A stretch of 64,000 bases of DNA, taken from the NCBI GenBank assembly GCA_003290465.1, contig CP030759.1, forward strand, positions 1,517,144 to 1,581,143, read 5' to 3'. The DNA comes from Candidatus Sumerlaea chitinivorans. Lineage in GTDB: Bacteria > Sumerlaeota > Sumerlaeia > Sumerlaeales > Sumerlaeaceae. Below are positions 14,188-36,836 of the stretch, in pieces. A program made the position numbers and the translations under genes. Numbering within the stretch: position 1 is the first letter of the stretch; each line of letters opens with the position of its first letter. Below the pieces are notes generated by a model. It saw only the letters and a program-made list of their open reading frames with translations, was not told the DNA's origin and searched no databases.

Positions 14188-14232
14188 GCGGAGTAAGTAC
14201 TCACAAGGTGCTTACTCCGCATTTGTTATTTT
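14188..14232 (+). terminator. Terminator hairpin of the rpsM-rplQ operon
   Basis: A perfect 10-bp stem GCGGAGTAAG/CTTACTCCGC (14188-14197 with 14211-14220) encloses a 13-nt loop. ATTTGTTATTTT follows on the plus strand. The 3' arm contains the stop codon of the convergent TPR gene. Confidence 0.8.
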
Positions 14233-17200
14233 GCGCATGCGGGCACGGCCAGCTTTTGCCACCTGATTGCGCGAATCGATCCGCAAGACCTGTTCGTACG
14301 CCTCCAGTGCTCGCAGCGCCGCCCCTTTGTTCTCGTAGCAACGTGCAAGAGCTATCAAATCTGCCAACGCCTCATGCTCAGGGGCAATCTGCATCAAAGC
14401 TTGGACGTACTTGCGGATCAGTTCAGGGTTGGTGTCGTCGATGTCTCGCGCTTGCCGATAACTTTGCAGAGCACCATCGATCTCTCCCTGCTGGTAGAGC
14501 AGATCCCCAAGCCGGACCAACGCGTCGTAACGATCTTTCGGTGCTAATCCCTTTTGACCAAGTCGGGCCCGCAAAGATTCCACTGTCTCCGGCTCATATT
14601 CTTTCGCACGCGCTTCATACTCGCTTGCCTTATCGGTCTGGCCGTTTGCCCGATAAAGTTCCGCCAAATAGAGAGCATTGGCAGCGGCTTCAGCTCGTTC
14701 CCCAAGCCTCATCAACAGAGGGCTAAAGACGAGCCGTGTCGCAAGATGGTCAGGATCAATTTCGAGAATTCGCCTACAGGCTGACACCGCACGTGTAATG
14801 TCAGTCTCCTCGCATGCCCGAACCACTTGAGAATAATGCTCCACGGCCGCGGAGTGCATTCCGGCACGCGCGTAGTTCTCAGCCAGTGATTCGGTGATAT
14901 TGACATCGGTAGGATTCAGGGAGTGAGCTCTGGCAAGGGTCCTTGCCGCAGCCGCAAAATCACCCGCAAGAGCATAAAGTTCGCTGAGCTTCACCATCTC
15001 CGCCACAGCACGCTGGCGTTGCCCCGTATTGAGCAAAAAGGCGATGAACTTCTCACGAACGTCGCGCTGGCGGCGATCGATGGCCAGAATTCGCTCGAAG
15101 GTGCGAGTCGCCTCCACGAACTGTGCCTTCTTAACGTACAGATCCGCAAGGCGTATATAGTCATCCAAGATCTCGAGCTCGTTGCCGACTTGGCCAAACA
15201 GCTCAATGTAGCGCTGAAGTGTCGCGGGATCCTCGGGCCGAAGCTCGACCAACTGCCGATAAACTTCTACGGCTTCTTCGACTTGTCCTAACGACAAATA
15301 AAGGTCTGCCAACTCTTGAAGCTGGACGGTGCGCTGCTCTCTTTCGCCAAGAATCTCCAGTAATTCGATGAGCTGCTTGCGTGGCTCGACTTCCTTAGGC
15401 GCAAGCTGGATACGTTGGCGCAAAACGTCGACTGCTTCGCGCACGCGTTTGCTATCAAGGAAGAGCTTGGTTAGGTTTTCCAGTGCATTGAGTGCATCTA
15501 TAATCCTGTTGGCGTTGCGGCACGCCTCAACGAGTTTCTGGTGGGCTTCGACCCACCGCGGCCGTGCCTCGACGGCCTTTTGCAGCAACCGGATACGATC
15601 CTCCGGCGAAGCTTCTTGGGCAGCCAAATCCGCGCAGCTCATGTAATAGCGTGCCGCAAATTCGTGAATCTGGTGCTCGAAGAAGAGATCGGCCAAGCGT
15701 TCTCGCAGCTGAATATCTTTTGGATAGTTCGCCACCTGAGTCTCAGCGATTTCACGGGCCGTTTCAAACTCTCCTTCAGCGAGCCGTTGGCGAACAATCT
15801 CGATCAATTCGTTTTGGGCAAGTTCCGTTTGGCCAAGTTCGCGGTAGAGCTGCATGAGCTCCTCACGAACGTCCGTGAGCTGAGGCTCCTCCCCCACCAC
15901 CTCAGAGTAAAGCGTGGCGGCATTACGCAAATCCCCGATCTCACGATACTTCGCTGCAAGCTGACGTGCACGATACAGGAATTCTTCGCGTCTCCCCTGC
16001 CGGCGGGCAATCTCGACGAGATACTGCTGTAGGCTCAGATCCTGCGGGTCAAGCTCGAGGCCCTCCCGCGCATACTCTTCGGCTTTGTCGTAATTACGTT
16101 TTCTTAGGTAGTACGCTGTAAGCCAGACGAGCTCGGGAAGAATTTCCTCCGTGCGCCCACACTGGCGATAAATGGCCAAGACTTTCTCATGGGTCGCAGG
16201 ATCATCGGGTGAGTGCTCAAGAATCCTGCCGAGTATAAGGCATGCTTCCTCCGCCTTCCCAGTTGCCACAAGCGCTTCGGCAAGGCGAACTCGAGCCCGA
16301 CTTGCCCCCTCTTCGTCCCCAAAAAATGCAAGCAAATCTCCGAGGCGCTTGAGAATTTCTGTGTCGTTCGGTACGGCGTCCGCAGCGATCTCAAGGCAGG
16401 CTAATGCGTCGTCGTAGCGCTTTGCCGCCGCAAACTGTTCGGCCGCTCGCGTCCATGCTTTCACAGCGTTTGCGACATCACCCAACGCTAAGTAAGCTTC
16501 GCCTAAACGTTTGCGTACTTGCGGCAGATTGTCGTTGATGGTCAAAACCGTGAGAGCCGCTTGGCGTACCTCGGCTGGATCTCCACCTCGGGTAGTCAAC
16601 TCGAAGAGCTGTGTCGCATAATACGCCGCTTTTTCGGATTGCTTCGCTGCCGCGCAACAATCCACGAGTATTCGAAGTACGTCGGGATCCTCTGGGCGAA
16701 GTTTCAAGAGCTTCTCAAAGCACTCAATCGCGTGCGCGTACTCTAACTGCTTCGTGTGGTGGTAACCAAGCGTGCGGAGCGCATATTCCTGAAGCTTTTG
16801 GTCGCGAGCGGCTTCGGCGAGTTGAAGCAGTCGTTGCAGGGCTTTGAGTTTTTCAGGATGTTGATCAACGAGAGACTTTAAAATGCGGCACGCTTCCTCA
16901 AGGTTGCCTTCGGAGGCAAGTGCATCCGCTAAGGTCATGGAATAGCGAACCAATCGCTCCCGATCATTCCCCTCACGAGCAAGGTCCACCAGCTCCCGAA
17001 TGATTTCTACTCGGTCCGGAGAGATGACCAAGATACGCTCATAAGTTGCGATGGCCCGATCGGCAAAACGCAGATTCCGATACATGCGTGCAAGCTCGTA
17101 CAGCGCTTCCACGGCTTGGTCGACGTCGCCAGAGGCCATAAGCTGCTCAGCAAGTTTCTCGCGGGATTCGAGATTTCCCGGATCGTGCTCGAGTATTTTC

Positions 17201-20200
17201 CGCAGCCAGCGAGCGGCGGCAGCGTGATCGCCGACCTTGAGTGTGAGTTCAACCAAGCGCTTCAGAAGGTCGAAGACGTCCGCTTTGCGACGTTCACGTT
17301 CGTAGAAACTCACAAGCGTTTCCAGAACGCCGATGTCATCGGGGAATTCCTCGAGCACTTCACGATAACACGTCTCTTCTTCTGTAACGGCACCCGCTTG
17401 CGAGAAGAGGCGAGCCGCCTGAAGCGAGGCGTTTGCCGCGCGGTCCTTTTCGCCAATCTTCTTGAAGGTTTGTGCAGCCAACCACCAGGTCTCGGGGGAG
17501 TTTCCGGCGAGGGAGATGATACGATCCATCACTCGCCGCGCCTCGTCCGTTCGCCCACGTTCGATGAGCCAGTCAATGTGGGCGCCCCCGATGGCGGTAA
17601 GGAAGGCTGCCCCAGCTTTCACATGTATTTGTTCGAGCAAGTTATCCGCTTCTTCGCGAGGAAGGCACTCCAGAAGCGCTGTGCAGAGTATCAGAGCGCG
17701 GGTACGACTCCGACTGCGCAAAGCAGACTCAACAGCTCGTTCTGTGACCGCACGCACATCGGGGTGGCACGAAGATTGTCGGATCAGAGTCGCAACGTTT
17801 GCTGCCGGCACCGTTGCGGGATCCAAACCCATGGCTGCCTCAAGCGCACGAGCTGCCGAAGAGAAATCCTGCGCTTCTGCAAATTCTTTCGCGACCTCGA
17901 GATACGCGTCGATCGCCTGCTGCGTATCGTTGGCATTGGCGTAGAGCTTCGCTGCGCGGAGAGCAATTGTGGGAGTCCGAGGTAGCTCGCGAAGCTCGCT
18001 GAGCGCCTGCTGACATACATTTCTTTCGCCGGTCTCACTTGCGAGTTCTGCAAGTTCCAAGAGCTCGTCCACAAGCAGTTGGGTCTGCCCCGTCTGACGC
18101 CAATAATCCACCAACCGCTGACGAATCGCGAGATTGCGTGGAGCAACCCGCTTTGCACACTGAAGCAACTGTGCGCAAGCGGTGGACTCTCTGGGGAACG
18201 CATCCAGCAGGCTAAGTGCACGGGCTGGCACTTGGTCAGGAGGTAGCAGTTCCAGCAGTTCCTCCGCAACGCTCAGATCGTTCTTCACAAGCTTTAGGAG
18301 CTGCTCGCAGAGAGCAATCCGATCTGCCCGTGGTACGGAGGACGTTTCGTGCGCCATGGCCAAAGCGCGACGATAGGCAACTACCGCGCCATCGTTTTGG
18401 CCTGCCTCCGAGCGCATTTGGCCAAGTTTCATGAAATCCTGATAGTTGGCTGCAGGAAGTTGTGAGAGACGTTCTTGCGCGGTCAGCGCTTGGTTGGTGC
18501 GTCCCTCTTGTTCATAGAGCCGCACAGCCTCGCGCAATGCCTCCGCAGCAAATTGAGGAACGTTCAGAGTATGATGGAGTTCCGCGAGAGCTTCAAAGAT
18601 TTGAGCGTCTGACGACGTGGGAAGCAGACTCGTGGCGCGCCCGAAATACTCGATGGCTTTTACTGGGTCGTTAAGTTCATCGCGATATGTGTGAGCCAGC
18701 AGAATGTACTGCTGCTTCGCGGCCGCAAGCTCCCCACACGCTTCAAGGAATTCCGCGTACTCAGCCCGTAAGTCAACCTCGCTCCCCTCCAACCTTATGA
18801 GCGACTCGTACAGGGCCTTGAGCTTCGCTGTGTCGCCATTCGCCCGGCGAAGTTCGATCAGTTTGCGGTAATACGGAAGCGCCTTTGCAAAGCCCTCGTA
18901 CTCGTACGTTAGGGAAGCAAGCCGCTCGAGTGTATCGGGGCATTGCGTCCGATACTCAAGAATGCGCGACAAGAGGGCGGAAGCATTCTTGTAGTCGCGG
19001 CGGTCCACGTAGGTCTCCACCAGTTGCTGCATTTCGGCCACAGCATCATCCACGCGGCCGAGATCCAGGAGAAGCTGGCACAACTGATGTCGAAGATCTG
19101 TGTTTTGCGGCTCCAATTCGAGCGCTTGCTGGAGTCCCACGAGACCACGCTGACTGTCACCTGCTTGTAGACAAGCTTGCACGTACGCGTTGAACGCCTC
19201 GATTGCCCGTTTTGTGCGTTTTTGCGCAGCAGCTGCTTTTGCGGCAGCCTCAAGAGCGTCAAGGTCCTGTGGCGCCAACCCCAACCACTTCGCAACGTAC
19301 GCCTCGGCCTCCTTTCCCTTATTCTGTTCGAGCAGTGTCAGCACCTGCTTACGATAAAATTCAATGGCCCTCGCCGGTTGCCCCAGCTCAGCCAGTTCAG
19401 CGACAACTTGCTCATATTCCGCGGTTTCTCCTAACGCTTCGCTGGCGGCGGCAAGTAAATTTAGAACAACCTCCCTCGACGGAGTTAGTGGAAGCGCGAT
19501 TTGTGCTGCTTCGCGAGCTAAGTGCGGATCATTTTGCTCGAGAGCACACTGCGCGACCTCGAGTAGAAGAGTTGATGCGTGCTCGCTCTCACCGATCGCT
19601 AAGCAATCCTGCGCAAGGTGGAATTTGGCTCGGAGGTCGTCTGGTCGTAGCTCGAGAATCTTCTCGCGGAGTTGGCGAACGCGGACCCGATCGCCAGCGG
19701 CCTCAACTTCGGCAAGAAGGAGCTCCAGCTGGCTACAAGCGCGATCCTTTTGCCCTGCGGAGGCAAGGAGCTCGGCATATTTTTCGCGCGACGCTTGGTC
19801 GGTCGGCCAGCGCTCAAGGTAGGTTTCGTACTCCGAGAGCAGCTCTGAGGTAGCACCTTTTTCTTCTAAGATGTGGATGTAATCGAGTGCTGCGAGTCGG
19901 GCCAATTCCGGATCATCCAGTGTTGCAAGCACGTCCGCCCGCCGCTTAACTAATGAGGCATTGCCCGGGTCACATTCGAGAGCAGCCGACAGGTAAGTCA
20001 GTGCGGCGCGTAAATCGTTGCGGCCCTCACACAAAGTCGCCAATTGCGAGTAGGTGGTGGCTGCCTCATTCGCCTTGCCAAGCTTTTGGAGGAGCATGGC
20101 GTAGTTTCGCAGGACAGATTCTTCCTCCGGAGCAATTTGAAGCAATTGCTCCGTAAGGAGAAGAAGTTCGTCCGTGTTTGTTTCCAACCACGCTGGGGCT

Positions 20201-22017
20201 ACAAGGAGGTAAAACTTTACAGCGGCTTGGCGCTGTCCGATGGCGATGGCCTGTCGGAGTAGCTCTCGCACGAGCTCGGGATCGTTTGGCGGACGCTGAC
20301 TTGCTGCCTCAAGCAACTTGCCGCCCACGCTCGCTTTCTGCTCTTCCGGCAGGGCTGCAACGGTTTCCACCGTGACCTTCGAAGCAAGGGAACGCAGCTC
20401 AGCTTCCCAAAGCAGCTCGCAGAATCGCACCTTAATGTCCAGCGCGTCGGGAACGAGCTCTAAATAGCTTTGGTAGCATCCAACTGCCCCTGCGACATCG
20501 TCGTCTTGTTCGGCAGATTTAGCAGCTTCTAAATAGAGTCGTGCGGCTGTTGCGGTACAACCACGGTTCGCAAGGTGGGCCGCTACCTCAAGGCGTGCGC
20601 CGGGCAATGGGTTAATCTCTAAGATTTCAAGCAAAGCTTTTTCGCCGCTCTCACTGTCACCGGCCGTGAAGTACAATTCGGCCAAATTTGTGAGCTCAAA
20701 ACAGGCTTCTTGAACTTCGCCGGCAGATTTCAAAAGCTCGATGACATCGCGGCGGATGGAGGGGTCTTCCGGGCTAAGGAATCGCGCACGCCCTAAGAGT
20801 GATTTTGTGCGGGCGAGATCCCCTTGAGCTTGAGCAAGGCCGGCAGCAAGGCGAAGCTCCTTCACCGCTTCTTCGTTGTTGGCCTGTTCTTGATGGACGC
20901 GCGCCAGCCACTCGTGAGCTTCAATGCTTTCGGGCTCAATCTCAAGCCACTTTCGCGCAGTCTGGAGGGCCCCAACAAAGTCCGAGTTATCCATCTGGGC
21001 GTTGAGGATAGTGGCTACCTCAGCTTTCGCCCGTTCGTATTCGCCCACCTTTACAAGCTGGTCCACCAGAAGCACGCGCAACGGCGTCATTTGCGGTTCA
21101 TAGTCGAGCACTCGTTCGAGCACTTGAATAGCCTCGGTGGGCTGCTCCTCAGCAATATAATGCCGTGCTAAGGTCTCGAGCCATTGGCATGCTGTTTTGA
21201 TATCATGACGCGCTACGTGAGCGTCGGCGAGTTTCTGAAGGTAAGCTGGGTAGTTGGGCCGCAGCTCGAGTAGCTTCTCATAGAGGCCGATATTTTCGGC
21301 GATGCGGCCTTCGGCCTCCCGACGCTGCGCGATGTTCTCGAGGAGCGCCACCATGCGCTCTGTCTGCCCTTGAAGTTCGGCACTGCGTATCTGAAGGAAG
21401 ATCAGGTCCTCGTTTTGCGGGAAGTCTATGGCAGCGCGCTCGAGAACCCGATCTGCATCCTCGTAGGCTTGTTTTTGCAGGTACGACTCAGCGACCGCAA
21501 TGAACTCCTCGCATGCTTGGGCCGTCTCGCCTTTGGCGGCATGGATATTCGCTAACAGCAGGCGAGCCTCAACCAAATCGGGCTGAAACTGAAGCGCGAG
21601 GCGGGCCGTTGTTTCGGCTGTCTCGTGGTCGTGATCTACGAAGGCTCGCTCTGCTTCGTCCAAGTACGAAAGCGCGAGTTCAGAAAACTGGGCGGTATCA
21701 ATCGGAAGATCAAGCGCACCGACTAACTCGAGCGCGGCCGGCAAAAGCTCCAGCCCACGAGTCAGAGCATAAAGCTGAACCAGCGAGCCTCCGTTGAATC
21801 CCTGACACGTCTTGATCGTGCATTTAAAGGATCGCTTGTTCGAGTCGACAAGGAGCGATCGGAATCGGGTGTCCTTGTGGATCGGGCAAAATGCTTTGAC
21901 CGACGAGCCGACCACTTGAACTTTATCTGTGGCGTAGCCAATGAGCTGAAGCAGCGCCGTCGGATCAAGCTGCTCGTTGACCTGTTCAATGAAGCTTGTA
22001 GTGGCGTGCTGGTCCAT
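14212..22017 (-). CDS. Giant TPR-repeat protein with N-terminal DnaG-like CHC2 zinc finger
   Basis: 2601 residues, the largest gene in the window. Residues about 40-100 resemble the zinc finger of DnaG primases. The likely ligands are C44-x2-H47, C66 and C71, followed by a GGSLVQLYAL segment like the GGDVFDFV of primases. There is no primase (Toprim) domain. Everything after about residue 115 is a continuous array of TPR-like helical hairpins, dozens of 34-residue units with A/G-x-Y/F-x-A patterns and frequent LEIDP- or LRPEDP-type ends. There is no signal peptide or membrane span, so it is probably a cytoplasmic scaffold. It follows the SPOR-domain gene by 71 bp, likely in one operon. Function unknown. 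Confidence 0.88.
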   Translation of the reverse strand: MDQHATTSFIEQVNEQLDPTALLQLIGYATDKVQVVGSSVKAFCPIHKDTRFRSLLVDSNKRSFKCTIKTCQGFNGGSLVQLYALTRGLELLPAALELVGALDLPIDTAQFSELALSYLDEAERAFVDHDHETAETTARLALQFQPDLVEARLLLANIHAAKGETAQACEEFIAVAESYLQKQAYEDADRVLERAAIDFPQNEDLIFLQIRSAELQGQTERMVALLENIAQRREAEGRIAENIGLYEKLLELRPNYPAYLQKLADAHVARHDIKTACQWLETLARHYIAEEQPTEAIQVLERVLDYEPQMTPLRVLLVDQLVKVGEYERAKAEVATILNAQMDNSDFVGALQTARKWLEIEPESIEAHEWLARVHQEQANNEEAVKELRLAAGLAQAQGDLARTKSLLGRARFLSPEDPSIRRDVIELLKSAGEVQEACFELTNLAELYFTAGDSESGEKALLEILEINPLPGARLEVAAHLANRGCTATAARLYLEAAKSAEQDDDVAGAVGCYQSYLELVPDALDIKVRFCELLWEAELRSLASKVTVETVAALPEEQKASVGGKLLEAASQRPPNDPELVRELLRQAIAIGQRQAAVKFYLLVAPAWLETNTDELLLLTEQLLQIAPEEESVLRNYAMLLQKLGKANEAATTYSQLATLCEGRNDLRAALTYLSAALECDPGNASLVKRRADVLATLDDPELARLAALDYIHILEEKGATSELLSEYETYLERWPTDQASREKYAELLASAGQKDRACSQLELLLAEVEAAGDRVRVRQLREKILELRPDDLRAKFHLAQDCLAIGESEHASTLLLEVAQCALEQNDPHLAREAAQIALPLTPSREVVLNLLAAASEALGETAEYEQVVAELAELGQPARAIEFYRKQVLTLLEQNKGKEAEAYVAKWLGLAPQDLDALEAAAKAAAAQKRTKRAIEAFNAYVQACLQAGDSQRGLVGLQQALELEPQNTDLRHQLCQLLLDLGRVDDAVAEMQQLVETYVDRRDYKNASALLSRILEYRTQCPDTLERLASLTYEYEGFAKALPYYRKLIELRRANGDTAKLKALYESLIRLEGSEVDLRAEYAEFLEACGELAAAKQQYILLAHTYRDELNDPVKAIEYFGRATSLLPTSSDAQIFEALAELHHTLNVPQFAAEALREAVRLYEQEGRTNQALTAQERLSQLPAANYQDFMKLGQMRSEAGQNDGAVVAYRRALAMAHETSSVPRADRIALCEQLLKLVKNDLSVAEELLELLPPDQVPARALSLLDAFPRESTACAQLLQCAKRVAPRNLAIRQRLVDYWRQTGQTQLLVDELLELAELASETGERNVCQQALSELRELPRTPTIALRAAKLYANANDTQQAIDAYLEVAKEFAEAQDFSSAARALEAAMGLDPATVPAANVATLIRQSSCHPDVRAVTERAVESALRSRSRTRALILCTALLECLPREEADNLLEQIHVKAGAAFLTAIGGAHIDWLIERGRTDEARRVMDRIISLAGNSPETWWLAAQTFKKIGEKDRAANASLQAARLFSQAGAVTEEETCYREVLEEFPDDIGVLETLVSFYERERRKADVFDLLKRLVELTLKVGDHAAAARWLRKILEHDPGNLESREKLAEQLMASGDVDQAVEALYELARMYRNLRFADRAIATYERILVISPDRVEIIRELVDLAREGNDRERLVRYSMTLADALASEGNLEEACRILKSLVDQHPEKLKALQRLLQLAEAARDQKLQEYALRTLGYHHTKQLEYAHAIECFEKLLKLRPEDPDVLRILVDCCAAAKQSEKAAYYATQLFELTTRGGDPAEVRQAALTVLTINDNLPQVRKRLGEAYLALGDVANAVKAWTRAAEQFAAAKRYDDALACLEIAADAVPNDTEILKRLGDLLAFFGDEEGASRARVRLAEALVATGKAEEACLILGRILEHSPDDPATHEKVLAIYRQCGRTEEILPELVWLTAYYLRKRNYDKAEEYAREGLELDPQDLSLQQYLVEIARRQGRREEFLYRARQLAAKYREIGDLRNAATLYSEVVGEEPQLTDVREELMQLYRELGQTELAQNELIEIVRQRLAEGEFETAREIAETQVANYPKDIQLRERLADLFFEHQIHEFAARYYMSCADLAAQEASPEDRIRLLQKAVEARPRWVEAHQKLVEACRNANRIIDALNALENLTKLFLDSKRVREAVDVLRQRIQLAPKEVEPRKQLIELLEILGEREQRTVQLQELADLYLSLGQVEEAVEVYRQLVELRPEDPATLQRYIELFGQVGNELEILDDYIRLADLYVKKAQFVEATRTFERILAIDRRQRDVREKFIAFLLNTGQRQRAVAEMVKLSELYALAGDFAAAARTLARAHSLNPTDVNITESLAENYARAGMHSAAVEHYSQVVRACEETDITRAVSACRRILEIDPDHLATRLVFSPLLMRLGERAEAAANALYLAELYRANGQTDKASEYEARAKEYEPETVESLRARLGQKGLAPKDRYDALVRLGDLLYQQGEIDGALQSYRQARDIDDTNPELIRKYVQALMQIAPEHEALADLIALARCYENKGAALRALEAYEQVLRIDSRNQVAKAGRARMRKITNAE

Positions 22018-25119: not shown

Positions 25120-25959
25120 TTACTTGAAGAAAACCGCAGCTAAATATCCAACCACATAGTCCTCGCGCCCCGGGTGAACGTCGTAGCTCGTGGTGAGTGC
25201 CAGCACCTTCGCTCGAGTGGCACCCAGCTCTTTGCTCGCCAGCATGACGATCGTAATCGGCCCCGCACCGCACGCCTGAAACTCCCCTGCTTCAATGCCT
25301 TGCGAGAAAGTGGTTGGGTCCATCTTCTCAATAGCACGAGCAGCCTGAAGACTCTTGGTTCGCGCAATTACAGCTCCCGGGCCATGATAAAGATCCGAAC
25401 TTGCCACAAGTAGAGTGCGCCCAGAGGTTTTGCGGGTTACCTCCACAATAGCACGTGCGACACGCTGGCAGTTTGACAGACTCCGATCGTAGACCACAAT
25501 GGGCACAATCTTGAAATCTGGAAGCATGAACTGAAGGAAGGGCAACTGAACCTCAAGCGAGTGCTCGCGGGTCTCTGCGTCGGGGTAGAAATCGAACACA
25601 TTGGACAAATTCCAAAGAGCGTCCGCAAACTCCCGGTCCACCGGAACCAATCCCAATGGGGTTTCGTAGGCGCGCCCCGGGAAAAGACTTGCTCCCGGAA
25701 ATACTGCGTAATGGCTGGGCGCCACAATAATGACGCGATCGTAACGCCGTCCTTGGAGGAGCTTATACGCGTGAGCCGCCGTCGGCCCACTATAAACGTA
25801 ACCCGCATGCGGCGCAACCAGTCCTATAGGCTCGAGGGTCTGGTCCACCTTTACCGCCTGAAACATCTGCCGCAGACAAAGGCGCAACTCCTGCGGATCT
25901 GATGGGTAAAAGCCATACCTCCCCGCGCTGACAGCCGGACGCACATCCGTAACCGTCAC
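25120..25959 (-). CDS. MEMO-family protein (AmmeMemoRadiSam protein B)
   Basis: 279 residues of the MEMO family, a fold related to extradiol dioxygenases with a metal site. Visible signature segments are APHAGYVYSGP, VAPSHYAVF, EHSLEVQLPF, SSDLYHG and ACGAGPI, which include the His and Cys expected at the metal site. I prefer GTG 25959: AAAGGAGGTGA (just upstream) overlaps the in-frame GTG 25968. There is no signal peptide, so it is cytoplasmic, unlike the second MEMO copy at 32310-34010. It lies between nuoH and the SPOR gene. Its reaction is not established to my knowledge. Confidence 0.88.
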   Translation of the reverse strand: MTVTDVRPAVSAGRYGFYPSDPQELRLCLRQMFQAVKVDQTLEPIGLVAPHAGYVYSGPTAAHAYKLLQGRRYDRVIIVAPSHYAVFPGASLFPGRAYETPLGLVPVDREFADALWNLSNVFDFYPDAETREHSLEVQLPFLQFMLPDFKIVPIVVYDRSLSNCQRVARAIVEVTRKTSGRTLLVASSDLYHGPGAVIARTKSLQAARAIEKMDPTTFSQGIEAGEFQACGAGPITIVMLASKELGATRAKVLALTTSYDVHPGREDYVVGYLAAVFFK

Positions 25960-26144
25960 GTTTCTCACCTCCTTTAGGTCTCCCCAATCATTTACCGTAC
26001 GGAAAGCCCGGAATGCAAGTAGGTTCTCTTAGAGGAGGTACGTGGGAGGACAAGTTCTCGCCTTTGACGGAACGCCATGAGGAAATGTCGAAAACGCGAG
26101 CGCGGGGCTTCTCCCGCAAGGGACCCGTATCGCGGAGGTAAAGT

Positions 26145-27317
26145 CTAAACGGATTTTGCCGAATAGCTGCGCGACGAACGCGCAAGCGAGTACGTCAAAC
26201 CCACAAGGAAAGCAAAAAGCATCCACATCAAGATATGGGAACCCATCACCAACTCAAAGGCCGCCCCAATCAGACATACCAGCGAAAAGGGAAGCAATAC
26301 TTTGAGGCACATGTACATCACTTGATCGATGCGCACACGCGGTAGGGTCCAACGTAGCCAGAGCATGACGAATAACAAAAAACTGGTTTTGGTGAGTAGC
26401 TGAATCGCGCCAAGAACGGGATGGCCTGCGGCCGGGAACGGAAAGTTCCACCCTCCGAGAAAGAGAAGGGATGCCACCATGCTAACCAAGACCATGACCG
26501 CATACTCGGCGAGGAAAAAAAAGGCGAATCGCATGCCGCTGTACTCGGTGTGGAAACCACTGACGAGCTCGCTCTCAGCCTCGGGGAGATCAAAAGGGGC
26601 CCGTTTGGCACTCGCGAGACCTGCCACATAGAAAATCACGAACGCAACCAAAGCCCACGGAGAAATGAAAATATACGGCAACACAGTTTGCTGGGCCGCG
26701 ATCTCATTGAAATTAAGAGTTCCAGCCAAAAGCACCACGGTGAGGGCAGATAGGCCCATCGGAATTTCGTAGCTCATCATCTGGGCGGCCAAACGCATAC
26801 CGCCATATAGAGACCACTTGGAGTTTGAAGCCCAGCCGGCCATAATCACACCGATCACTTCCAACGCGGCAAAGGCGAGAACGAAAAAGAGTGCCGCATC
26901 CATGTTCGCCACCACGAAGATGTCCGCGAACGGGACTGCCGCAAATGGAACAAGCGCGCCAACCAGCACCAGCGCCGGGGCAAATGAGAACAAGAACCGG
27001 TGGGCATTTGCTGGCACGACATCCTCTTTGACCAGCAGCTTCAAGCCATCCGCGATACTCTGCAAGATGCCATGCCAACCGACTCGCATGGGCCCTAGCC
27101 GGCTCTGGATATGCCCAGCAACCTTTCGTTCGGCGTAGATTAGAATCATTGCAGCAAGGCTGATCACGCCGAGGATCACTGCGCTTGCGACAAGGATGCC
27201 ACCAGCCACAACCACCCATGCCGGCAAATGAGTCTGCTCAACGATACGCTCCAGCAAGCCGCCAAAGATGTTCGGGGGTGGCGAGAAAAGTGGTAATTCG
27301 GAGGCCTTTTCAATCAT
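26145..27317 (-). CDS. nuoH: NADH-quinone oxidoreductase subunit H
   Basis: A 390-residue membrane subunit of respiratory complex I that lines the quinone chamber. Family motifs are IYAERKVAGHIQSRLGPMRVG, WASNSKWSL, SAKRAPFDLPEAESELV with its acidic quinone-site residues, and FLLFVMLWLRWTLPRVRIDQ. About eight or nine helices are seen. The length is slightly above the usual 325-350 because of an extended N-terminus. No other nuo gene is in the window, so this subunit is separated from its complex. AGGAA precedes the ATG. Confidence 0.95.
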   Translation of the reverse strand: MIEKASELPLFSPPPNIFGGLLERIVEQTHLPAWVVVAGGILVASAVILGVISLAAMILIYAERKVAGHIQSRLGPMRVGWHGILQSIADGLKLLVKEDVVPANAHRFLFSFAPALVLVGALVPFAAVPFADIFVVANMDAALFFVLAFAALEVIGVIMAGWASNSKWSLYGGMRLAAQMMSYEIPMGLSALTVVLLAGTLNFNEIAAQQTVLPYIFISPWALVAFVIFYVAGLASAKRAPFDLPEAESELVSGFHTEYSGMRFAFFFLAEYAVMVLVSMVASLLFLGGWNFPFPAAGHPVLGAIQLLTKTSFLLFVMLWLRWTLPRVRIDQVMYMCLKVLLPFSLVCLIGAAFELVMGSHILMWMLFAFLVGLTYSLARSSRSYSAKSV

Positions 27318-28667: not shown

Positions 28668-29966
28668 TTAGGCCCATATCCCAGCAATCGGGGTACGGCA
28701 GAATTCGCATTTCCCGTCATTCAAGTGTTGTTCGACCACCGTAAAAACATCACGCAGGATGATAGGTTTGCGGCAATTAGGACAGTAGGTTGTGCCAGCG
28801 TCGGGGACGTTGCGAACGTTACCGATGTACACGTAGCGCAATCCCGCAGCGCGCGCTTGCTCTCGGGCGGCCAGAAGCGTCTCAACTGGCGTTGGAGGGA
28901 GATGCGTTAGGCGATGCGCAGGATGAAACCGCGAGAAATGCAGTGGAACATCCTGGCCAACTTTCTCTGCAATCCAACCGCACATCTGACGGATCAGCGC
29001 GACGTTGTCTGTGTAGGTTGGAACGATCAGGTTGATAATCTCGACCCACACCCCAGCGCTCTTCAAAGTGAGAATTGCATCAAGGACAGGTTGAAGATGC
29101 CCTGAATTCAGCCTCATATAGGTTTCTTCATCAAAACCTTTGAGGTCCACGTGAGCAGCGTCAATATACTGCGCGAGTTCCCGCAGAGGGTCGGGACGGA
29201 TGTAGCCGCTCGTGACCAAGATATTGCGCACCCCTGCTGCGCGAGCAAGCTTGGCTGTATCGAGTGTGTATTCGAACCAAGCGATTGGCTCGGAGTAGGT
29301 GTAAGCAATAGCTTCGCACTTGGAAGCGCGTGCGTTTGCAACCACATCCTCTGGAAACAGACTCATTCGCGCGAGCTCATCCAGAGACGCAGGAGGCGGC
29401 CCACCCGGCTTCAAGCGAAACTCAGGCCCATCGGCCCGTTTTGTGTCCTCTGGGCGTTTCTGGGAAATCTCCCAGTTCTGACAATTCATGCACCTGAGCA
29501 CGCACCCGGCAATCGCTAATGAGAACGTGCGGCTGCCCGGCAGAAAATGGAAAAGGGGTTTCTTCTCGACGGGGTCAATGTGGAACGTACATGGGTTCGC
29601 ATAGGCAAGCGTGTAAAGCGTGCCGTCGCGATTCACGCGTGTCCGGCAATGACTCCGGTCACCCGGCTCGAGGATGCAGCGGTTTGGACAGATGGAACAT
29701 TGCACCGTAGTGCCGCGTTTGAGATAAAACTCAGCCTCGCGGATCCACCCCCGCTTGCGCCAAGCCTCGAACGTTGCGTCATCAGGCGCGCCGCGCTTGA
29801 ACACCCCCGGATTGTCCTGAGTTGCATCACGGATGCTCGCTTGAGACCAAAGCCATGCCCAAGTTGAAGAGCTGCACCCCGCCAGTGCTCCAAGTCCCAC
29901 AAACTGCAGGAACTTGCGGCGACTGAGTCGCGTACTTGCTCGCCTCTGTTGAAGCTTGGTTCTCAT
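28668..29966 (-). CDS. AmmeMemoRadiSam radical SAM enzyme with Tat-lipoprotein signal
   Basis: 432 residues. The radical SAM cluster motif is C155-x3-C159-x2-C162 (GCVLRCMNC). Upstream are further Cys (C90, C93, C97, C107), and the C-terminus has a CPNC...CEFC zinc-ribbon-like pair. The N-terminus is unusual: a twin-arginine motif SRRKFLQ (15-21), a hydrophobic stretch and a lipobox LAGC with Cys31. It is thus predicted to be exported folded by Tat and lipid-anchored. Radical SAM enzymes are normally cytoplasmic. Its start overlaps the stop of the upstream spermidine-synthase-like gene (ATGA), indicating co-translation. The reaction is unknown to me. Confidence 0.9.
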   Translation of the reverse strand: MRTKLQQRRASTRLSRRKFLQFVGLGALAGCSSSTWAWLWSQASIRDATQDNPGVFKRGAPDDATFEAWRKRGWIREAEFYLKRGTTVQCSICPNRCILEPGDRSHCRTRVNRDGTLYTLAYANPCTFHIDPVEKKPLFHFLPGSRTFSLAIAGCVLRCMNCQNWEISQKRPEDTKRADGPEFRLKPGGPPPASLDELARMSLFPEDVVANARASKCEAIAYTYSEPIAWFEYTLDTAKLARAAGVRNILVTSGYIRPDPLRELAQYIDAAHVDLKGFDEETYMRLNSGHLQPVLDAILTLKSAGVWVEIINLIVPTYTDNVALIRQMCGWIAEKVGQDVPLHFSRFHPAHRLTHLPPTPVETLLAAREQARAAGLRYVYIGNVRNVPDAGTTYCPNCRKPIILRDVFTVVEQHLNDGKCEFCRTPIAGIWA

Positions 29967-32176
29967 TCCGCCTGCGACTCCTTGGCTGCCTCAAGAGCGC
30001 CACGCGTCGCCCCTTCGTGTATTCCAGAAGCGGCGAAGCGAGCGCGCCACATTTCAATTGCTCCCCATATATTTACCGCCGCGCAGCACAAAATTGCAAT
30101 CCCCACACCAAACGTGGGCACCAACATGGTGCTCAACAGAATTGCTCCAGCTGCAGCACCAATGAAATCCGCTGTGTAAAGGCGGGCAGGCGTGGTTCCG
30201 GAATGGAATCGCTCCGCGCGCGCAGCTACTGGGAATGCGTAACCCACAAGTGTGGCAAGCCCCAACACCACGATCGTAACAGACAGCAAGGGGGCGATGG
30301 GGTTCACGATGGATCGGGTGATCGTCGGCATTGGGGGGAGAAGTGCCACCAGCGCCAGTGCGATACCAGCTGTGAGAAGCTGATTCCACACAAGAGACGT
30401 GGAAGAAACGCGAGCTTTCGCTCCCATCCAAGCCCCCACCACAAGCCCAACCATGAAAGCCGTGACCACAACGCCCACTTGATAGTAGAGTGCACCCGCA
30501 AGGACCTGAAGCAAGAACAGTAGGACATACTCGAGCCCTGCAGCGCTATAGCCAGAAGCGAAAATCGCCACGGCCGGGCCACGCAGCGAGGCGGCGTAAG
30601 CAAGGATCAGCAAGGCGATCACCACCTCCAGTGCGCCAACCTTATATCCGTGTTCGTCGAGCCAACGGCGGAGTGTGAATGAAAGCAGTTTGGGCTGAAA
30701 ATCGCGATTGAGTGGGACGGGGACCTGAACGGCTGCCTGGAGAGTAGCCAGCCGGTCAGCAGTGATCATAGTTTCAAAATAGGAAGGACCCACATACGCC
30801 GTTTTAATTTGGGCTTCCCTGTAGAGCGTGGCATAGTCAGAAGATAGTAAGCCATCACTGGCCAGGAAATAACTCTGCGCAGCGGGAAGTATCAGCACGT
30901 TCCCAAACACAGCGCTCAGCGTCCTATAGCACGTTGCAATGGACCGTGCTTGTGCGGGACTCAAATAGCCCGTAAAATCTCCAAAGGGGAAGGCCAGTAC
31001 TCCACCCTGCCGCAAGGCAGCACGCACTTCACGGAAAAACTCTACGGTGTACAAACGGTGAAACTGAAGTGTGTCGGGTAAAGGACTGAACAGAAGAATC
31101 AAATCGTATTTGGGGCCACATGCTCGAACGTAGAACCGAGGATCCGCCGAGATGAGATGGACACGCGGATCGTTCAAGACGTGAGATGCAACTTTTTCAA
31201 TCTGCCGTATGAGACGGTCATCTGGATGCACACAGTCTACTTGCAAGCGCGGATACTTGAGTAGTTCAGCAATAATTTCTGGAATTGGGGCGCCAAGAAG
31301 CAACACGCGTTCTGCATTCGGACGCTGAAGCATGGCAAGGTGGACTCGCTCCTCTGCAGTATCGTGCTGCCCAGTCGAAAAGTACGGCACACCGTTGAGA
31401 AAGAAATTATACTGCTCGCCCACCTTCGTTGCCAGAAGATGGCCATACGGAGTGTTGGCGTTTAACTGGACAGGCTGCCCCAACGCCAAAGCATTAAGCG
31501 TTCGGCGCTCTGCCGCCGCTGCAATGAAATAAACGAATATCGTTGCCACCACCACGAGGGATGCGCGGTGCCGTTGGCCATCCAGCAACTGACAAGTTAC
31601 GGCTGTTCCGAGAAGCAAAAGTCCTGTGCCCACTACAATCGCACCGTGGGTGAGAAAGTGGACAAGCACGAAAGAGAAGAGTACGCCGCCAAGAACACTG
31701 CCTGCTGCATCAAGCATATAGCCATGCCCCAGCCCTTCGGCGGGACCACGCTTGGCGGCCAACACCGAGCTGGCACGGCACAGCAGAAAGCCTGAGAGCA
31801 TACAATAGGGAAGCATGGAAGCTGTCGCAGCCAGCAGTGCCTCCGTGGGGCCTGCTTGCGCTCCTCGGACCATGAGAGTGAGACGGACTCCGCGGAGAAC
31901 CAGCAATGACGTGGGAGCCAACACTCCCAGTCCTGCCACAGCAAAGGCAATGCGGGCGGAAGACGGGTGATTCGGCGAGTGCTGCGACCGTGCGATGGTG
32001 CTACCCAATCCCGTGAACAGCAACCAGAGGCCGAGACTCACACCCACCACGTATTCGTTGCCTGCAAACGCCCCCAAGAGTTCTCGAGTCACTACAAGCT
32101 GAACGAGTGGCGAGGCTATTCCAACGGCAAGAATGATGAGTTGCCATGGTGTAGTTTGTCGCCTGAGTTCGTGCAT
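29963..32176 (-). CDS. Membrane-embedded spermidine-synthase-like protein
   Basis: 737 residues. Six or seven N-terminal helices (about 10-225), a soluble methyltransferase-fold domain (about 240-480) and about seven C-terminal helices resemble fused membrane/spermidine-synthase proteins. The soluble part keeps the order of polyamine synthase motifs, with FLNGVPYFST, a stretch like the EERVHL helix, and LYTVEFFREVRAAL. The substrate motif that should read GGGDG is GAPIPE, and the acidic motif (D-DP) is LFSPLPD. Spermidine synthesis is therefore unlikely. It starts at ATG 32176 (TTG at 32179 also in frame) and ends overlapping the radical SAM start. Confidence 0.82.
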   Translation of the reverse strand: MHELRRQTTPWQLIILAVGIASPLVQLVVTRELLGAFAGNEYVVGVSLGLWLLFTGLGSTIARSQHSPNHPSSARIAFAVAGLGVLAPTSLLVLRGVRLTLMVRGAQAGPTEALLAATASMLPYCMLSGFLLCRASSVLAAKRGPAEGLGHGYMLDAAGSVLGGVLFSFVLVHFLTHGAIVVGTGLLLLGTAVTCQLLDGQRHRASLVVVATIFVYFIAAAAERRTLNALALGQPVQLNANTPYGHLLATKVGEQYNFFLNGVPYFSTGQHDTAEERVHLAMLQRPNAERVLLLGAPIPEIIAELLKYPRLQVDCVHPDDRLIRQIEKVASHVLNDPRVHLISADPRFYVRACGPKYDLILLFSPLPDTLQFHRLYTVEFFREVRAALRQGGVLAFPFGDFTGYLSPAQARSIATCYRTLSAVFGNVLILPAAQSYFLASDGLLSSDYATLYREAQIKTAYVGPSYFETMITADRLATLQAAVQVPVPLNRDFQPKLLSFTLRRWLDEHGYKVGALEVVIALLILAYAASLRGPAVAIFASGYSAAGLEYVLLFLLQVLAGALYYQVGVVVTAFMVGLVVGAWMGAKARVSSTSLVWNQLLTAGIALALVALLPPMPTITRSIVNPIAPLLSVTIVVLGLATLVGYAFPVAARAERFHSGTTPARLYTADFIGAAAGAILLSTMLVPTFGVGIAILCCAAVNIWGAIEMWRARFAASGIHEGATRGALEAAKESQAE

Positions 32177-32309
32177 CAAATCACTGCCCTTGAGGTTGAC
32201 GTCTCGCGCACCCCCCTACGGACAAAGCGTTGCTATAGCGAGTGCCCCCGAGCGTCATCCTTCTGTTTGCAGCCGTTTGGGGTGTCCGCCTCGACGAACA
32301 CCACCGGCC

Positions 32310-34010
32310 TCAGTGCCGGCTGACGAACTGAGATTCCTCGAAAGCTTGGACGTGATAGATCTGCACTTCTACATTTGGCCCGCGCCACGCATCAGCAGCG
32401 CACCCTGCTTTGCGGCTCAAGTGGCTGAGAAAATCTTCCTTACGTGGCAGCTGTTCCCACACCTGAGGTAAAAATGTCGCCATGTAGGGGCCGATCTTAA
32501 GCACGACACCATCGCGATGCGGCTGGAGTTTGGCCAGAAGATCCTCGGGAGAAGAAAACGCAAGCGGCTTGGGAACTGTCAGAACGCTCACTTCTATCTC
32601 CAGTTCGGAGAGTTCCGCTGGCCGAACGGGCGAGAAACGAGGGTCTTCCAATGCTGCGCTTCTTGCTGAAGACATGACCGCCTGATAGAGCGGCTCACGG
32701 GGAAAGATCTGACCAATGCAACCGCGCAGTTGCCCATGCTTCGTCAGGGTCACGAAGCACCCTTTGGGATCGTGAAACTTCTTTGGAAATTCCTCCGGTC
32801 TCACCACAGGCAAGCGACCGAAACGGACGACCTCTTCGACCGTGCGTCGCGCAAGTTGCACCAGCAAGCGCCCTTCCTCCACGGTGAGAGGCTGCGTGGT
32901 CCCATCCGTCGGATTTGTTGTGGAGCGATCTTCGTTTGGCAGAGGGTTTACCCCATCTCCGCCACCTCCTTTCTTCGCTTTTGGGTCAGAGGATCTTGCC
33001 GTTGAGCGTTCGCAGAAGGCAATAGCGGCGTAGCCGACCACGCCCCCTTCTTTCCGACCACTCGTATCACCGCTGTTCTGATAACTTAGCAAAATGGGTT
33101 CCCAGTCAAACTGTCGCGCAAGGTGCATAAGGACGAGTATGGGAGTCTTGCCACAGGCCTCCTGCTGCTGCATCCCGCGAATGTCGAGCTCGCGGATCCT
33201 ACGGACGCATTCAAGGTCCAACGAACGAGCCGTCTCGTACGGATGATAATGGCTGAGATCAGAGCTGGCGATGACGACATCCTGCGGGCCAATCCGCTTT
33301 GCCAGCACGTCAGCCACAACTTTTGGGTCCACTCGACCGCACACGAGAGGAACCAAGCGAAACTCCCCGAGTCCTGCTTGCAAGAACGGCAGCTGTACCT
33401 CCAACGAATGTTCGTACGTATCGGGCCGTGGATCTTGGCTCGATAGTCCCGTACGGCTTGCCCACGGCGGCGCTTCGACCAACGCCTTGGGACGAAAAGT
33501 AAACGGCGACTGCGTGGCTAACTCATGGACCAGCGGGTCAAGGTTCACTATCCCAAGCGGGGTGCGATAGTGTGCAGGGGTAACCGCTACGCCATTAAAA
33601 TCGGCGTAGTGACTCGGTGCCAAAATTATGACGCGCTGGTGGCTGCTACCGGCATCCGTGGCTCGCGTCTGCCCGATGAGCGCTTTATAGGCAACTGCAG
33701 CAACCGGGCCAGAGTACTCATAGCCAGCGTGCGGGACAATCAGCCCACGAATTTTACCGGGCACCTGAGGGCATGCTGCTGCAGAAAGCAATCCGTTCAC
33801 CCCCTCACGAAGTTTGGAGGCTTCGGCAGGATAGAACGCGCCCGCGACAGCAGGTCTGCGCACCTCGACGATCGGTCCGCTTGTAGCAACGTCAGCAAGC
33901 GAGGAAGCCATGCCGGCAGAAATTCCGCCAGCGGCCACACCAATTAGAACAGCCATGCAATGAAGTTTGCGACGGACGTCGAAAATCCACTTGTGAAGAG
34001 CCTCCCGCAT
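32310..34010 (-). CDS. MEMO-AMMECR1 fusion (AmmeMemoRadiSam proteins B and A) with signal peptide
   Basis: 566 residues. The N-terminus looks like a Sec signal: RRK, then CMAVLIGVAAGGISAG and SSLA, with likely cleavage near residue 39. The MEMO domain (about 48-335) has VPHAGYEYSGP, LAPSHYADF, EHSLEVQLPF, SSDLSHY and ACGKTPI. After a Gly/Lys/Pro-rich linker comes an AMMECR1 domain (about 370-560) with the hallmark LRGCIGQ near residue 430. The fusion joins two of the three AmmeMemoRadiSam parts; the radical SAM part is two genes downstream. It is the first gene of the minus-strand run and is divergent from the release-factor-like gene. Confidence 0.9.
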   Translation of the reverse strand: MREALHKWIFDVRRKLHCMAVLIGVAAGGISAGMASSLADVATSGPIVEVRRPAVAGAFYPAEASKLREGVNGLLSAAACPQVPGKIRGLIVPHAGYEYSGPVAAVAYKALIGQTRATDAGSSHQRVIILAPSHYADFNGVAVTPAHYRTPLGIVNLDPLVHELATQSPFTFRPKALVEAPPWASRTGLSSQDPRPDTYEHSLEVQLPFLQAGLGEFRLVPLVCGRVDPKVVADVLAKRIGPQDVVIASSDLSHYHPYETARSLDLECVRRIRELDIRGMQQQEACGKTPILVLMHLARQFDWEPILLSYQNSGDTSGRKEGGVVGYAAIAFCERSTARSSDPKAKKGGGGDGVNPLPNEDRSTTNPTDGTTQPLTVEEGRLLVQLARRTVEEVVRFGRLPVVRPEEFPKKFHDPKGCFVTLTKHGQLRGCIGQIFPREPLYQAVMSSARSAALEDPRFSPVRPAELSELEIEVSVLTVPKPLAFSSPEDLLAKLQPHRDGVVLKIGPYMATFLPQVWEQLPRKEDFLSHLSRKAGCAADAWRGPNVEVQIYHVQAFEESQFVSRH

Positions 34011-34087
34011 CACCCATCACCTCGTAAGAAGGTATGTAGTCGCGCGCCACAAAGTTGCCAAATGGAAAATACACTTGGAACGGGGCA

Positions 34088-34519
34088 ATGACAAGGTTTG
34101 GGGTGTCGCCACAAAAGGAAAACGCTCTGCTCCAGAAGATGGCAGAATTAGGGATTCGCGAAGAAGATCTCGAGGAGCGCTTTGTCCGATCCGGCGGACA
34201 TGGGGGGCAAAATGTTAACAAAGTTGCAACATGCGTTTACCTCAAACACCGACCCACGGGAATCGAGGTGAAGTGCCAACGCGAGCGCTCCCAAGGGCTG
34301 AACCGTTTTTTAGCGCGTCGGCTCCTTGCTGAAAAGATTGAAACACTCCGACGCGGTAAACAGAGCGCGGAGCAACAGCGAATCGAGAAAATCCGCCGTC
34401 AGAAACGCAAGCGCTCGAAACGGGCAAAAGAGAAAATGCTCGCTCAGAAACATCGCGATGCAGAAAAGAAGGCCTTGCGCCAACCTCCCTCAACCGACGA
34501 AGAATATCAAGAAGAGTAA
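34088..34519 (+). CDS. Release-factor-like protein with GGQ motif
   Basis: 143 residues. The peptidyl-tRNA hydrolysis motif GGQ lies in RSGGHGGQNVNKV (about 36-46), with CVYLKHRPTG and ERSQGLNRFLA as in the small class-I RF-domain family. The decoding domains of RF1/RF2 are absent. The C-terminus is a long Lys/Arg-rich helix of the kind that, in ArfB, enters the empty mRNA channel. Rescue of stalled ribosomes is therefore likely by analogy. I chose ATG 34088 because family members start just before FGVSP; ATG 34055 would add 11 residues. Confidence 0.87.
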   Translation: MTRFGVSPQKENALLQKMAELGIREEDLEERFVRSGGHGGQNVNKVATCVYLKHRPTGIEVKCQRERSQGLNRFLARRLLAEKIETLRRGKQSAEQQRIEKIRRQKRKRSKRAKEKMLAQKHRDAEKKALRQPPSTDEEYQEE

Positions 34520-34841: not shown

Positions 34842-36836
34842 ATGGTTATTACGAAGCTCCATGCAGTTGCACTCGAGAAATTGCTTCAAGCGGAAGACGA
34901 AGCAAGAACCCCGATCCAGCCCGCTGAGGTCGGCGAGGAGGTCGCGCGGGAGCTGGAGGCGATGGGGCTGGTGCGCTTTGAAACGCCAGTGTGTCTCGCC
35001 CTGACGTACAAAGGGCGCGAGCTTACTCAGGTCCTTCGTGAGCTTGTCGCGCTTGGGCCGACGCCTTACGCCCAATCCGAAGACGAGGCAAAGGACGACG
35101 TCTACATCGTTCAGGGACACGGCCTTCCGCCAATCTCCGACTGGGATGACGCCTTCCGTTTCCTCGGTAGCGAGGTCATCGCAATGCTCGATGCAGCTCG
35201 GCGTGCTCATCAGGCAGCGGAACACAGCGAGGAGCCTTTGCTTGAACGTGGACTGGCTGCGCGCGTGCGCCATCGCAAGAAGCACAAGGACTACGTCGCG
35301 CTCACCGAGCAAGGACTGCGCATTTTAGAAATCTACGAGACAACACATCCGCGTTTGGAAATAAATTACACGCTGGCAGACGCCATTCGGGCTTTGCCCA
35401 TGGGACCAACGCCTGCAAGTAATTTCCCGGCTACCCAGCATGATCGTTATCTCTTAGAGGGCATGCGACTGATTAGCTATTCGGTGCCTCACGGCGGCAT
35501 CTGTAGCTTCACGGCTTTAGGTCAGGCCGTCAAACAGGCTCTTGAAACAGGTGGTTTCGGGGAAGGGGACGTTTTGACGGAAGACATCCTTGCGGCGTTA
35601 GCAAACTATACTCGCGATCCCAAAGCCGATCATCCAAGCTTGAGCATGTTGCAGGCGCTTGGATATGTTGGCGCGGACGGCGATCTGTTGCCTGCGGGAG
35701 AGTGGGCCCTCGAAGCTTACCGCTTACTCCATGAAGGCGCACGCAGCGACGTGTGGACCATTGCAGTGCATGCCGAGGACATTGCGGTGCTGCGTGCGAT
35801 TGATGCGATCTGGCAAAAGGCAACATCTAACCGCGAGGAGGCTCCTACGTTTGAGAAGCTTCGAACCGAGATGATTGATCGAAAGGTCCGCCAATACAAG
35901 GCACTCCTTGAAAAGTACGGGCGAAAGCTCAACGAGATGCCGCATAAATATCAGCAAATTGCGAGCAAGTTCCAAGAAGCGAAGAACTATGCTCAGTGGT
36001 TTGACGACAACTTTGACCTTCGTGCCGTTCTCCATTCGCTTGAGTCCTTCCAACTCATCGAAAGTATCGAAGATCGAAAAGGGAGAGAAGTCTTCCGGCT
36101 TACGGAGCACGGGCAGCGGGTTTTGGCTGACGGTGCAGAGCAGGTGAGTTCGACCTCTGTGAAGAGCATTACGATGACCCGCAAGACGTTTAGTTCACCG
36201 AACCGCACGTGGTATAATGAAGCCGTCGAAGAGGGACTCATCGGCACCGCTGCACCGACTAAGCGCGGATATCTCTACGCGAATCTTGCGGAAACTATCC
36301 ATCGCCTTCCGTTCCTGACACGTTTCGAGCAAAGGGTGTTCGACGCGATCCCTGAGTACGGAATGACGGTTTCACAGGTCTTCCGTGAGCTTGAAAAGGA
36401 AATCGAGCCGGAGTGGATCAAATGGGCCTTGGAGAAACTGGAGGCCCGGCATCTAATCGAGGTCTTACCTGACGGCAATATCGTGGAGACTGAGGCGGGC
36501 AAGCTGCTGGATCGAGCGCTCTCAGGTGTGCCGAAAGGCATGGGATTCCCGGTCACGCCTCTTATTGTGCGTGTGCTGCAGGCTGTCGCAGAGGTAGGAA
36601 GCCTCTACCGCAAGGAGCGGTGTGTGCGCATCCTACCGCGGCAGTTCGCGGATGCGCGCAGGCGGTCCGGGCTCGCAGGTGACGCTTTCCAAAATGCCCT
36701 CGAACTTGCCCGCGCCGCAGGTTACATGGGGCAGAATTCCATCAATGAGGCCGGTCTACTGATTCTGGAAGCTGTGGCCAAGATGAACCCCAGCGAGAAG
36801 TTGGCTGGTCACGTTGGGTTTGATTCGGAAAGCTAA
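34842..36836 (+). CDS. DUF505-like protein
   Basis: 664 residues of a soluble protein. It opens MVITKLHAVAL and consists of repeated winged-helix-like segments ending in phrases such as LTEQGLRILE, LTEHGQRVLA and ETEAGKLLD. A mid-region (SPNRTWYNEAVEEGLIG, then LTRFEQRVFDAIP) resembles the DUF505 family, mostly known from thermophiles and archaea. That assignment is from memory. Repeated wing motifs suggest DNA or RNA contact, but this is inference. GAGGAGGAAAG gives a strong start. It stands alone. Confidence 0.7.
   Translation: MVITKLHAVALEKLLQAEDEARTPIQPAEVGEEVARELEAMGLVRFETPVCLALTYKGRELTQVLRELVALGPTPYAQSEDEAKDDVYIVQGHGLPPISDWDDAFRFLGSEVIAMLDAARRAHQAAEHSEEPLLERGLAARVRHRKKHKDYVALTEQGLRILEIYETTHPRLEINYTLADAIRALPMGPTPASNFPATQHDRYLLEGMRLISYSVPHGGICSFTALGQAVKQALETGGFGEGDVLTEDILAALANYTRDPKADHPSLSMLQALGYVGADGDLLPAGEWALEAYRLLHEGARSDVWTIAVHAEDIAVLRAIDAIWQKATSNREEAPTFEKLRTEMIDRKVRQYKALLEKYGRKLNEMPHKYQQIASKFQEAKNYAQWFDDNFDLRAVLHSLESFQLIESIEDRKGREVFRLTEHGQRVLADGAEQVSSTSVKSITMTRKTFSSPNRTWYNEAVEEGLIGTAAPTKRGYLYANLAETIHRLPFLTRFEQRVFDAIPEYGMTVSQVFRELEKEIEPEWIKWALEKLEARHLIEVLPDGNIVETEAGKLLDRALSGVPKGMGFPVTPLIVRVLQAVAEVGSLYRKERCVRILPRQFADARRRSGLAGDAFQNALELARAAGYMGQNSINEAGLLILEAVAKMNPSEKLAGHVGFDSES

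Follow-up and report, generated by a model that had tools for sequence, protein, structure and literature searches.

Does an AmmeMemoRadiSam system operate outside the cytoplasm? Radical SAM (rSAM) chemistry is normally intracellular, where its cofactor and electrons arise. These enzymes require SAM, a low-potential electron, and intact Fe-S clusters, which are thought to be available inside the cell only, and to our knowledge no extracytoplasmic radical SAM enzyme has been characterized. No biochemical activity is known to be established for any AmmeMemoRadiSam member. The question is raised by a gene trio in the window (the whole stretch of 64,000 nucleotides analyzed in this study), which belongs to a complete genome of 3.29 Mb. 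An earlier note, made from the sequence alone, had claimed that all three AmmeMemoRadiSam parts are present, that a polytopic spermidine-synthase-like protein lies between the other two genes, that the MEMO-AMMECR1 fusion and the rSAM enzyme both bear export signals, and that this points to an envelope-located version acting perhaps on a secreted or membrane substrate. The three genes are arranged in tandem on the minus strand, with the following features.

32310-34013, minus strand: MEMO-AMMECR1 fusion, 567 aa, probable start ATG at 34010; TIGR04336 at 214.6 bits (cut-off 26) and TIGR04335 at 199.3 bits (cut-off 99)
34017-34023, minus strand: Shine-Dalgarno sequence GAGGTGA of the fusion gene, 6 nt before the ATG
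33900-34010, minus strand: Sec-type export signal of the fusion, residues 2-38, predicted from the sequence and aligned relatives
33015-33860, minus strand: MEMO domain, metal ligands H95, H135, and C287 kept
32340-32867, minus strand: AMMECR1 domain with the LRGCIG motif, the sole AMMECR1 domain found in the genome
29963-32179, minus strand: polytopic spermidine-synthase-like protein, 738 aa, with seven transmembrane helices, a soluble domain, and seven further helices; PF01564 at 40.3 bits (cut-off 22.9)
30695-31486, minus strand: spermidine-synthase-like domain, residues 232-495, predicted to be extracytoplasmic, catalytic Asp replaced (F364)
28668-29966, minus strand: rSAM of the AmmeMemoRadiSam system, 432 aa; TIGR04337 at 341.3 bits (cut-off 220)
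29978-29983, minus strand: Shine-Dalgarno sequence AAGGAG of the rSAM gene, 11 nt upstream of the ATG, within the 3' end of the preceding gene
29847-29927, minus strand: Tat signal of the rSAM, residues 14-40, SRRKFLQFVGLGALAGC...; TIGR01409 at 20.2 bits (cut-off 16.7)

The first three claims held: TIGR04336, TIGR04335, and TIGR04337 all scored above their NCBI cut-offs, the PF01564 match lies between the other two genes, and the export signals were identified by the Tat model for the rSAM and as a Sec-type N-terminus for the fusion. When neighborhoods were clustered, the recurrent unit consisted of the three core gene families alone, and a conserved fourth gene as substrate was rejected on this result. 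The epimerase and NuoH neighbors of the trio were common only to the close relatives L006 and L007.

Several other genes of the window were recorded as side observations. An additional lone MEMO without a signal is encoded at 25120-25968, with NuoH between this MEMO and the epimerase and the same order in L006; the isolated nuoH occupies 26145-27317, and the other nuoH of the genome is located at 1.02 Mb. A short RF-1-domain protein (34055-34519) adjoins the trio and is also present beside L006, a DUF505 protein (34842-36836) lies next to the trio, and a protein of 2601 aa built of TPR repeats is encoded at 14212-22017.

The rSAM contains the cluster motif CxxxCxxC at residues 155-162, with C155, C159, and C162 invariant in eight aligned sequences, as well as further cysteines in an N-terminal set (C90, C93, C97, and C107) and a C-terminal ribbon of two CxxC motifs. 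The closest named relatives of the genome are Sumerlaeota MAGs (rSAM identity of 72 and 69%), from which a Sumerlaea-like organism is inferred. The nearest characterized relatives of the rSAM by score are the pyruvate formate-lyase activating enzymes, which are cytosolic, yet the match is far under the curated cut-off for glycyl-radical enzyme activases (PFLA, 49 vs 231.75 bits). The structure model of the rSAM was weak (pLDDT 63) and was used solely for noting a hairpin formed by the conserved N-terminal segment. The start of the gene overlaps the stop of the upstream gene by four bases; no second ATG was found in the first 100 codons, and the GTG codons at positions 23, 55, and 88 have no Shine-Dalgarno site.

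TIGR01409, the NCBI Tat signal model, was run on residues 1-80 of the rSAM; among 1133 background genes, 43 (3.8%) had a Tat-like start. The Pfam TAT_signal model gave no match for the window rSAM, was weak in its relatives, and was at its cut-off in L051. TatC is encoded in the genome (196.5 bits). With a twin-arginine motif, a score above the curated cut-off, and TatC present, the window rSAM meets the criteria for a Tat substrate, Tat-dependent export itself being inferred from sequence alone. A lipoprotein reading of the same N-terminus is not claimed: a lipobox, LAGC, is possible in the window but absent from close relatives.

The N-terminus of the fusion combines a basic n-region with a hydrophobic stretch (MREALHKWIFDVRRKLHCMAVLIGVAAGGISAGMA), and is less clear-cut than that of its nearest orthologue, L006, which has a textbook Sec signal (MCKQTKITIVSFVGILLAAIMFARPVAADS). 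The starts of both proteins include their signals and do not lie downstream of them. H95, H135, and C287 were invariant in four aligned sequences and equal the metal ligands H49, H81, and C244 of human MEMO1 (PMC11081632), and the RGC[IVM]G motif of the AMMECR1 domain was retained in 33 of 33 fusions. The genome encodes a second TIGR04337 enzyme at approximately 2.12 Mb (L033, G000:C1:2123769-2124755) without a signal. Because this other rSAM and the lone MEMO are unsignaled and the single AMMECR1 is exported, the only complete set here is the exported one.

The AlphaFold2 model of the membrane protein reproduced the two sets of seven helices with the soluble domain between them (pLDDT 77.5, pTM 0.76), and the soluble domain matched 1uir by Foldseek (E 3e-10) and spermidine synthases by sequence. 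Positive-inside analysis placed the Lys/Arg-rich loops on the side opposite to this domain in 20 of 20 members; therefore, the domain is predicted to face outward, on the side of the exported partners. The adenosyl-side Asp (D346) was invariant in the alignment (21/21 members), whereas the catalytic Asp of the IIxDxxDP motif was gone in 19 of the 21 and kept in two, with Phe in the window copy, where the glycine-rich loop is also degenerate. Compared with spermidine synthases and the fused MFS-spermidine synthases (PF01564, NF037959), the domain shares the fold and the adenosyl pocket, but it has lost the catalytic Asp, is predicted to lie outside, and falls below the NCBI cut-offs, including that of NF037959; the curated equivalog cut-offs for polyamine aminopropyltransferases were not met (138.3 vs 472 and 60.7 vs 260 bits). 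An active spermidine synthase is ruled out by the active site. The membrane protein probably binds an adenosyl compound and does not make polyamines, as inferred from the active-site alignment with no binding data.

To survey relatives, TIGR04337 was searched in 198 genomes of Bacteroidota, to which L009 belongs, and in 145 from the phylum that includes L008 (labelled Verrucomicrobiota), 40 relatives were searched with the rSAM protein, and about 135 neighborhoods were read. Outside the curated Tat model, N-termini were called by a motif-and-hydropathy rule and checked by eye. Among 138 rSAM cores, 37 were classed as exported, comprising 31 with Tat-like N-termini (28 with RR) and six with membrane-helix N-termini. 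The exported rSAMs had the fusion or the membrane protein alongside at 22 loci, neither at 15, and only cytosolic partners at none, vs 2, 60, and 24 for the signal-less, non-truncated rSAMs. The informative cells (22:0 vs 2:24) gave p = 2e-11, a descriptive value, as related loci are not independent. Of the two exceptions, L062 has its exported fusion close to another rSAM copy, a cytosolic one, and L187 has a weak match to the membrane protein. The sole unsignaled fusion beside an rSAM was found at L159, and that rSAM is unsignaled too.

A profile follow-up of 20 genomes identified a signaled fusion in 16, and a signaled fusion or separate signaled genes in 18; the separate genes were MEMO and AMMECR1 in G313 and AMMECR1 in G384 (only AMMECR1 checked). 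The fusion accompanies a truncated rSAM in G012 and G298, and the membrane-protein profile matched in all 20 genomes, several of them weakly. These results indicate that the exported arrangement recurs in several phyla, with the signals being predicted and MAG contamination of single loci not excluded.

The rSAM tree was built from the 138 cores over 320 core columns with the signal region left out, using a quick method that leaves deep forks uncertain. The 37 exported rows required three label changes vs a shuffled mean of 32.8, and none of 500 shuffles was as low; the window rSAM falls inside starred all-exported clades of 3, 6, and 11 rows. Apart from the uncertainty in the deep forks, these data show that export is an old property of essentially one rSAM clade.

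Membrane electron carriers were found in some relatives. A NapH-like polyferredoxin lies beside L038, L200, and L202, and a DsbD_2 protein beside L066, L200, L202, and L203; the rSAMs of L200-L203 are among the few with a plain N-terminal membrane helix, the orientation of which is ambiguous. In L218 and L058, representing one subclade, the membrane protein is fused to an FMN_bind and Fer4_5 module of the NosR/RdhC-like type, with an SGATxTS FMN-attachment motif and Fer4_5 CX3CP helices. By analogy, this module recalls the reductive dehalogenases with RdhC/PceC (and NosR-NosZ), in which an exported redox enzyme is paired with a membrane protein of FMN/polyferredoxin type; the FMN domain of PceC faces outside (PMC5928378). 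The reductive dehalogenase is a Tat-exported Fe-S enzyme. The catalytic protein here is an rSAM and not a corrinoid or copper reductase, and the catalytic subunits are not homologous. No gene for a transmembrane electron carrier adjoins the window copy, and the NosR/RdhC-type module is absent there.

Two further loci were recorded. At L198:4651-6936, a DsbD_2 transmembrane electron carrier and an rSAM are naturally fused, and the charge pattern of this fusion is predicted to place the rSAM outside. At L046:9485-10618, an unidentified ORF with a Tat-like motif (SRRQFLRDSLALAAGG) lies between the rSAM gene and the MEMO-AMMECR1 neighborhood, overlapping the start of the latter.

The earlier note held that homologues with the same neighbors but without signals would refute the export reading. 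Such homologues exist in one place, a supported subclade of 15 rows nested within the exported clade, in which the rSAMs begin at the first Cys motif and carry no signal, and in most linked cases the MEMO-AMMECR1 protein is exported. In six loci (L218, L058, L229, L232, L234 with LSDHAAKYY, and L225), the membrane electron carrier terminates in LSxxEAxYY, which resembles the segment preceding the first Cys motif, the first strand of the rSAM, in other rSAMs; by helix count, this tail is predicted to lie outside. It is possible that the NosR-like carrier tail and the signal-less rSAM form a split enzyme completed in trans. Either the split rSAM is exported by an unknown route or the predicted topology or partner is wrong, and this remains unresolved. 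As a separate observation, L235 has a truncated-type rSAM beside unsignaled, separate MEMO and AMMECR1 and appears to be an all-cytosolic member of the subclade.

The remaining claims of the earlier note fared unequally. An envelope-located version is supported, since the starts, the co-occurrence of rSAM and MEMO-AMMECR1 signals across phyla, and the model-predicted topology of the third protein agree, while no evidence bears on a secreted or membrane substrate, and the spermidine-synthase-like domain is by its active site not a polyamine synthase. The parts, the signals, their conservation and co-occurrence, the carrier fusions, and the predicted topology are shown at the level of sequence. 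The likely and best reading is a variant of the AmmeMemoRadiSam system that is located in the envelope, where the membrane protein serves as its hub. In this view, the rSAM would fold in the cytoplasm, Fe-S clusters included, and exit via Tat, MEMO-AMMECR1 would exit via Sec, and the two would come together outside the cytoplasmic membrane, at its surface, on the 14-helix hub with its outward, inactive spermidine-synthase-like domain. The hub would most likely handle an adenosyl compound outside, through supply of SAM or removal of 5'-deoxyadenosine or methionine, and, where membrane electron carriers are fused or adjacent, may cooperate with them, the carriers reducing the rSAM cluster. The 5'-deoxyadenosyl radical of the rSAM would then modify a substrate that is exported or lies in the membrane, or else AMMECR1/MEMO itself; the MEMO metal site may finish the reaction. 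Assembly at the outer face, SAM handling, and the electron route are inferred. The signals, topology, and structure are all predictions, and no SAM outside the cytoplasm has been demonstrated.

A bolder reading, compatible with the evidence though slightly less likely than not, proposes extracytoplasmic radical SAM catalysis in Sumerlaeota, Bacteroidota, and Verrucomicrobiota-like phyla, with a dedicated SAM-exporting or product-handling membrane protein and dedicated transmembrane electron carriers, the enzyme of one branch being completed in trans by the C-terminal strand of its membrane electron donor.

Among the rival explanations, a maturase role survives best and remains possible. In this case, the rSAM would act on MEMO-AMMECR1 by modifying one residue within its invariant RGC[IVM]G motif, and the protein so modified would be the working envelope enzyme. 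It is favored by the lack of a fourth conserved gene as candidate substrate, the retention of the motif in every fusion, and the proximity of the rSAM to glycyl-radical activases. However, no modification is known, and the motif defines AMMECR1 generally and so does not explain export. This rival concerns the substrate and is compatible with an envelope location.

A two-compartment relay is unlikely. Here a cytoplasmic rSAM would act on a precursor, the 14-helix protein would translocate it, and the exported MEMO-AMMECR1 would finish it, the rSAM N-termini being just membrane anchors. The main argument for it is the nested subclade pairing a signal-less rSAM with an exported MEMO-AMMECR1; the ambiguous N-terminal helix on some rSAMs and the cytoplasmic location of SAM and reductant also support it. 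Against it stand the true Tat motifs of the 31 rSAMs (28 with RR), the outward spermidine-synthase-like domain and the charge pattern of the L198 fusion, both by prediction, and electron carriers of kinds that serve exported enzymes.

It is also unlikely that the spermidine-synthase-like domain works as a transferase within the same pathway, using SAM or a derivative on an envelope substrate: the fold and the adenosyl-side D346 are kept, but the catalytic Asp is lost in nearly all members and the window copy has a degenerate glycine-rich loop. That the signals are artefacts of wrong starts in a cytosolic system is very unlikely and largely refuted, for although the Memo and rSAM domains start well downstream of the called starts, a single ATG precedes the rSAM core, ribosome sites are strong, genes overlap, and the signals are conserved across phyla.

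The envelope-located reading leaves a system that is an AmmeMemoRadiSam member because of its families and new as a variant because of its location and added parts. It shares with the cytosolic system (TIGR04335, TIGR04336, and TIGR04337) the same three families, all above the NCBI cut-offs, with the metal-site and radical-SAM cysteines kept. Unlike that system, all parts here are exported by prediction, MEMO is fused to AMMECR1, a dedicated 14-helix protein is present, the rSAM forms its own clade, and some lineages have electron carriers attached. Wording of the type 'periplasmic radical SAM' was not found in the literature searched, which is weak evidence, and no link between AMMECR1 and spermidine synthase was found in that literature, which excluded a 2019 JBC study of Memo-AMMECR1 contexts.

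A conserved clade of exported rSAMs with a hub and carriers would mean that the intracellular limit on radical SAM chemistry can be broken, and would point to extracytoplasmic SAM and reductant. MEMO and AMMECR1 are both tied to human disease. Their role would be narrowed by this arrangement, as in these organisms the substrate must be accessible from outside the cytoplasmic membrane.
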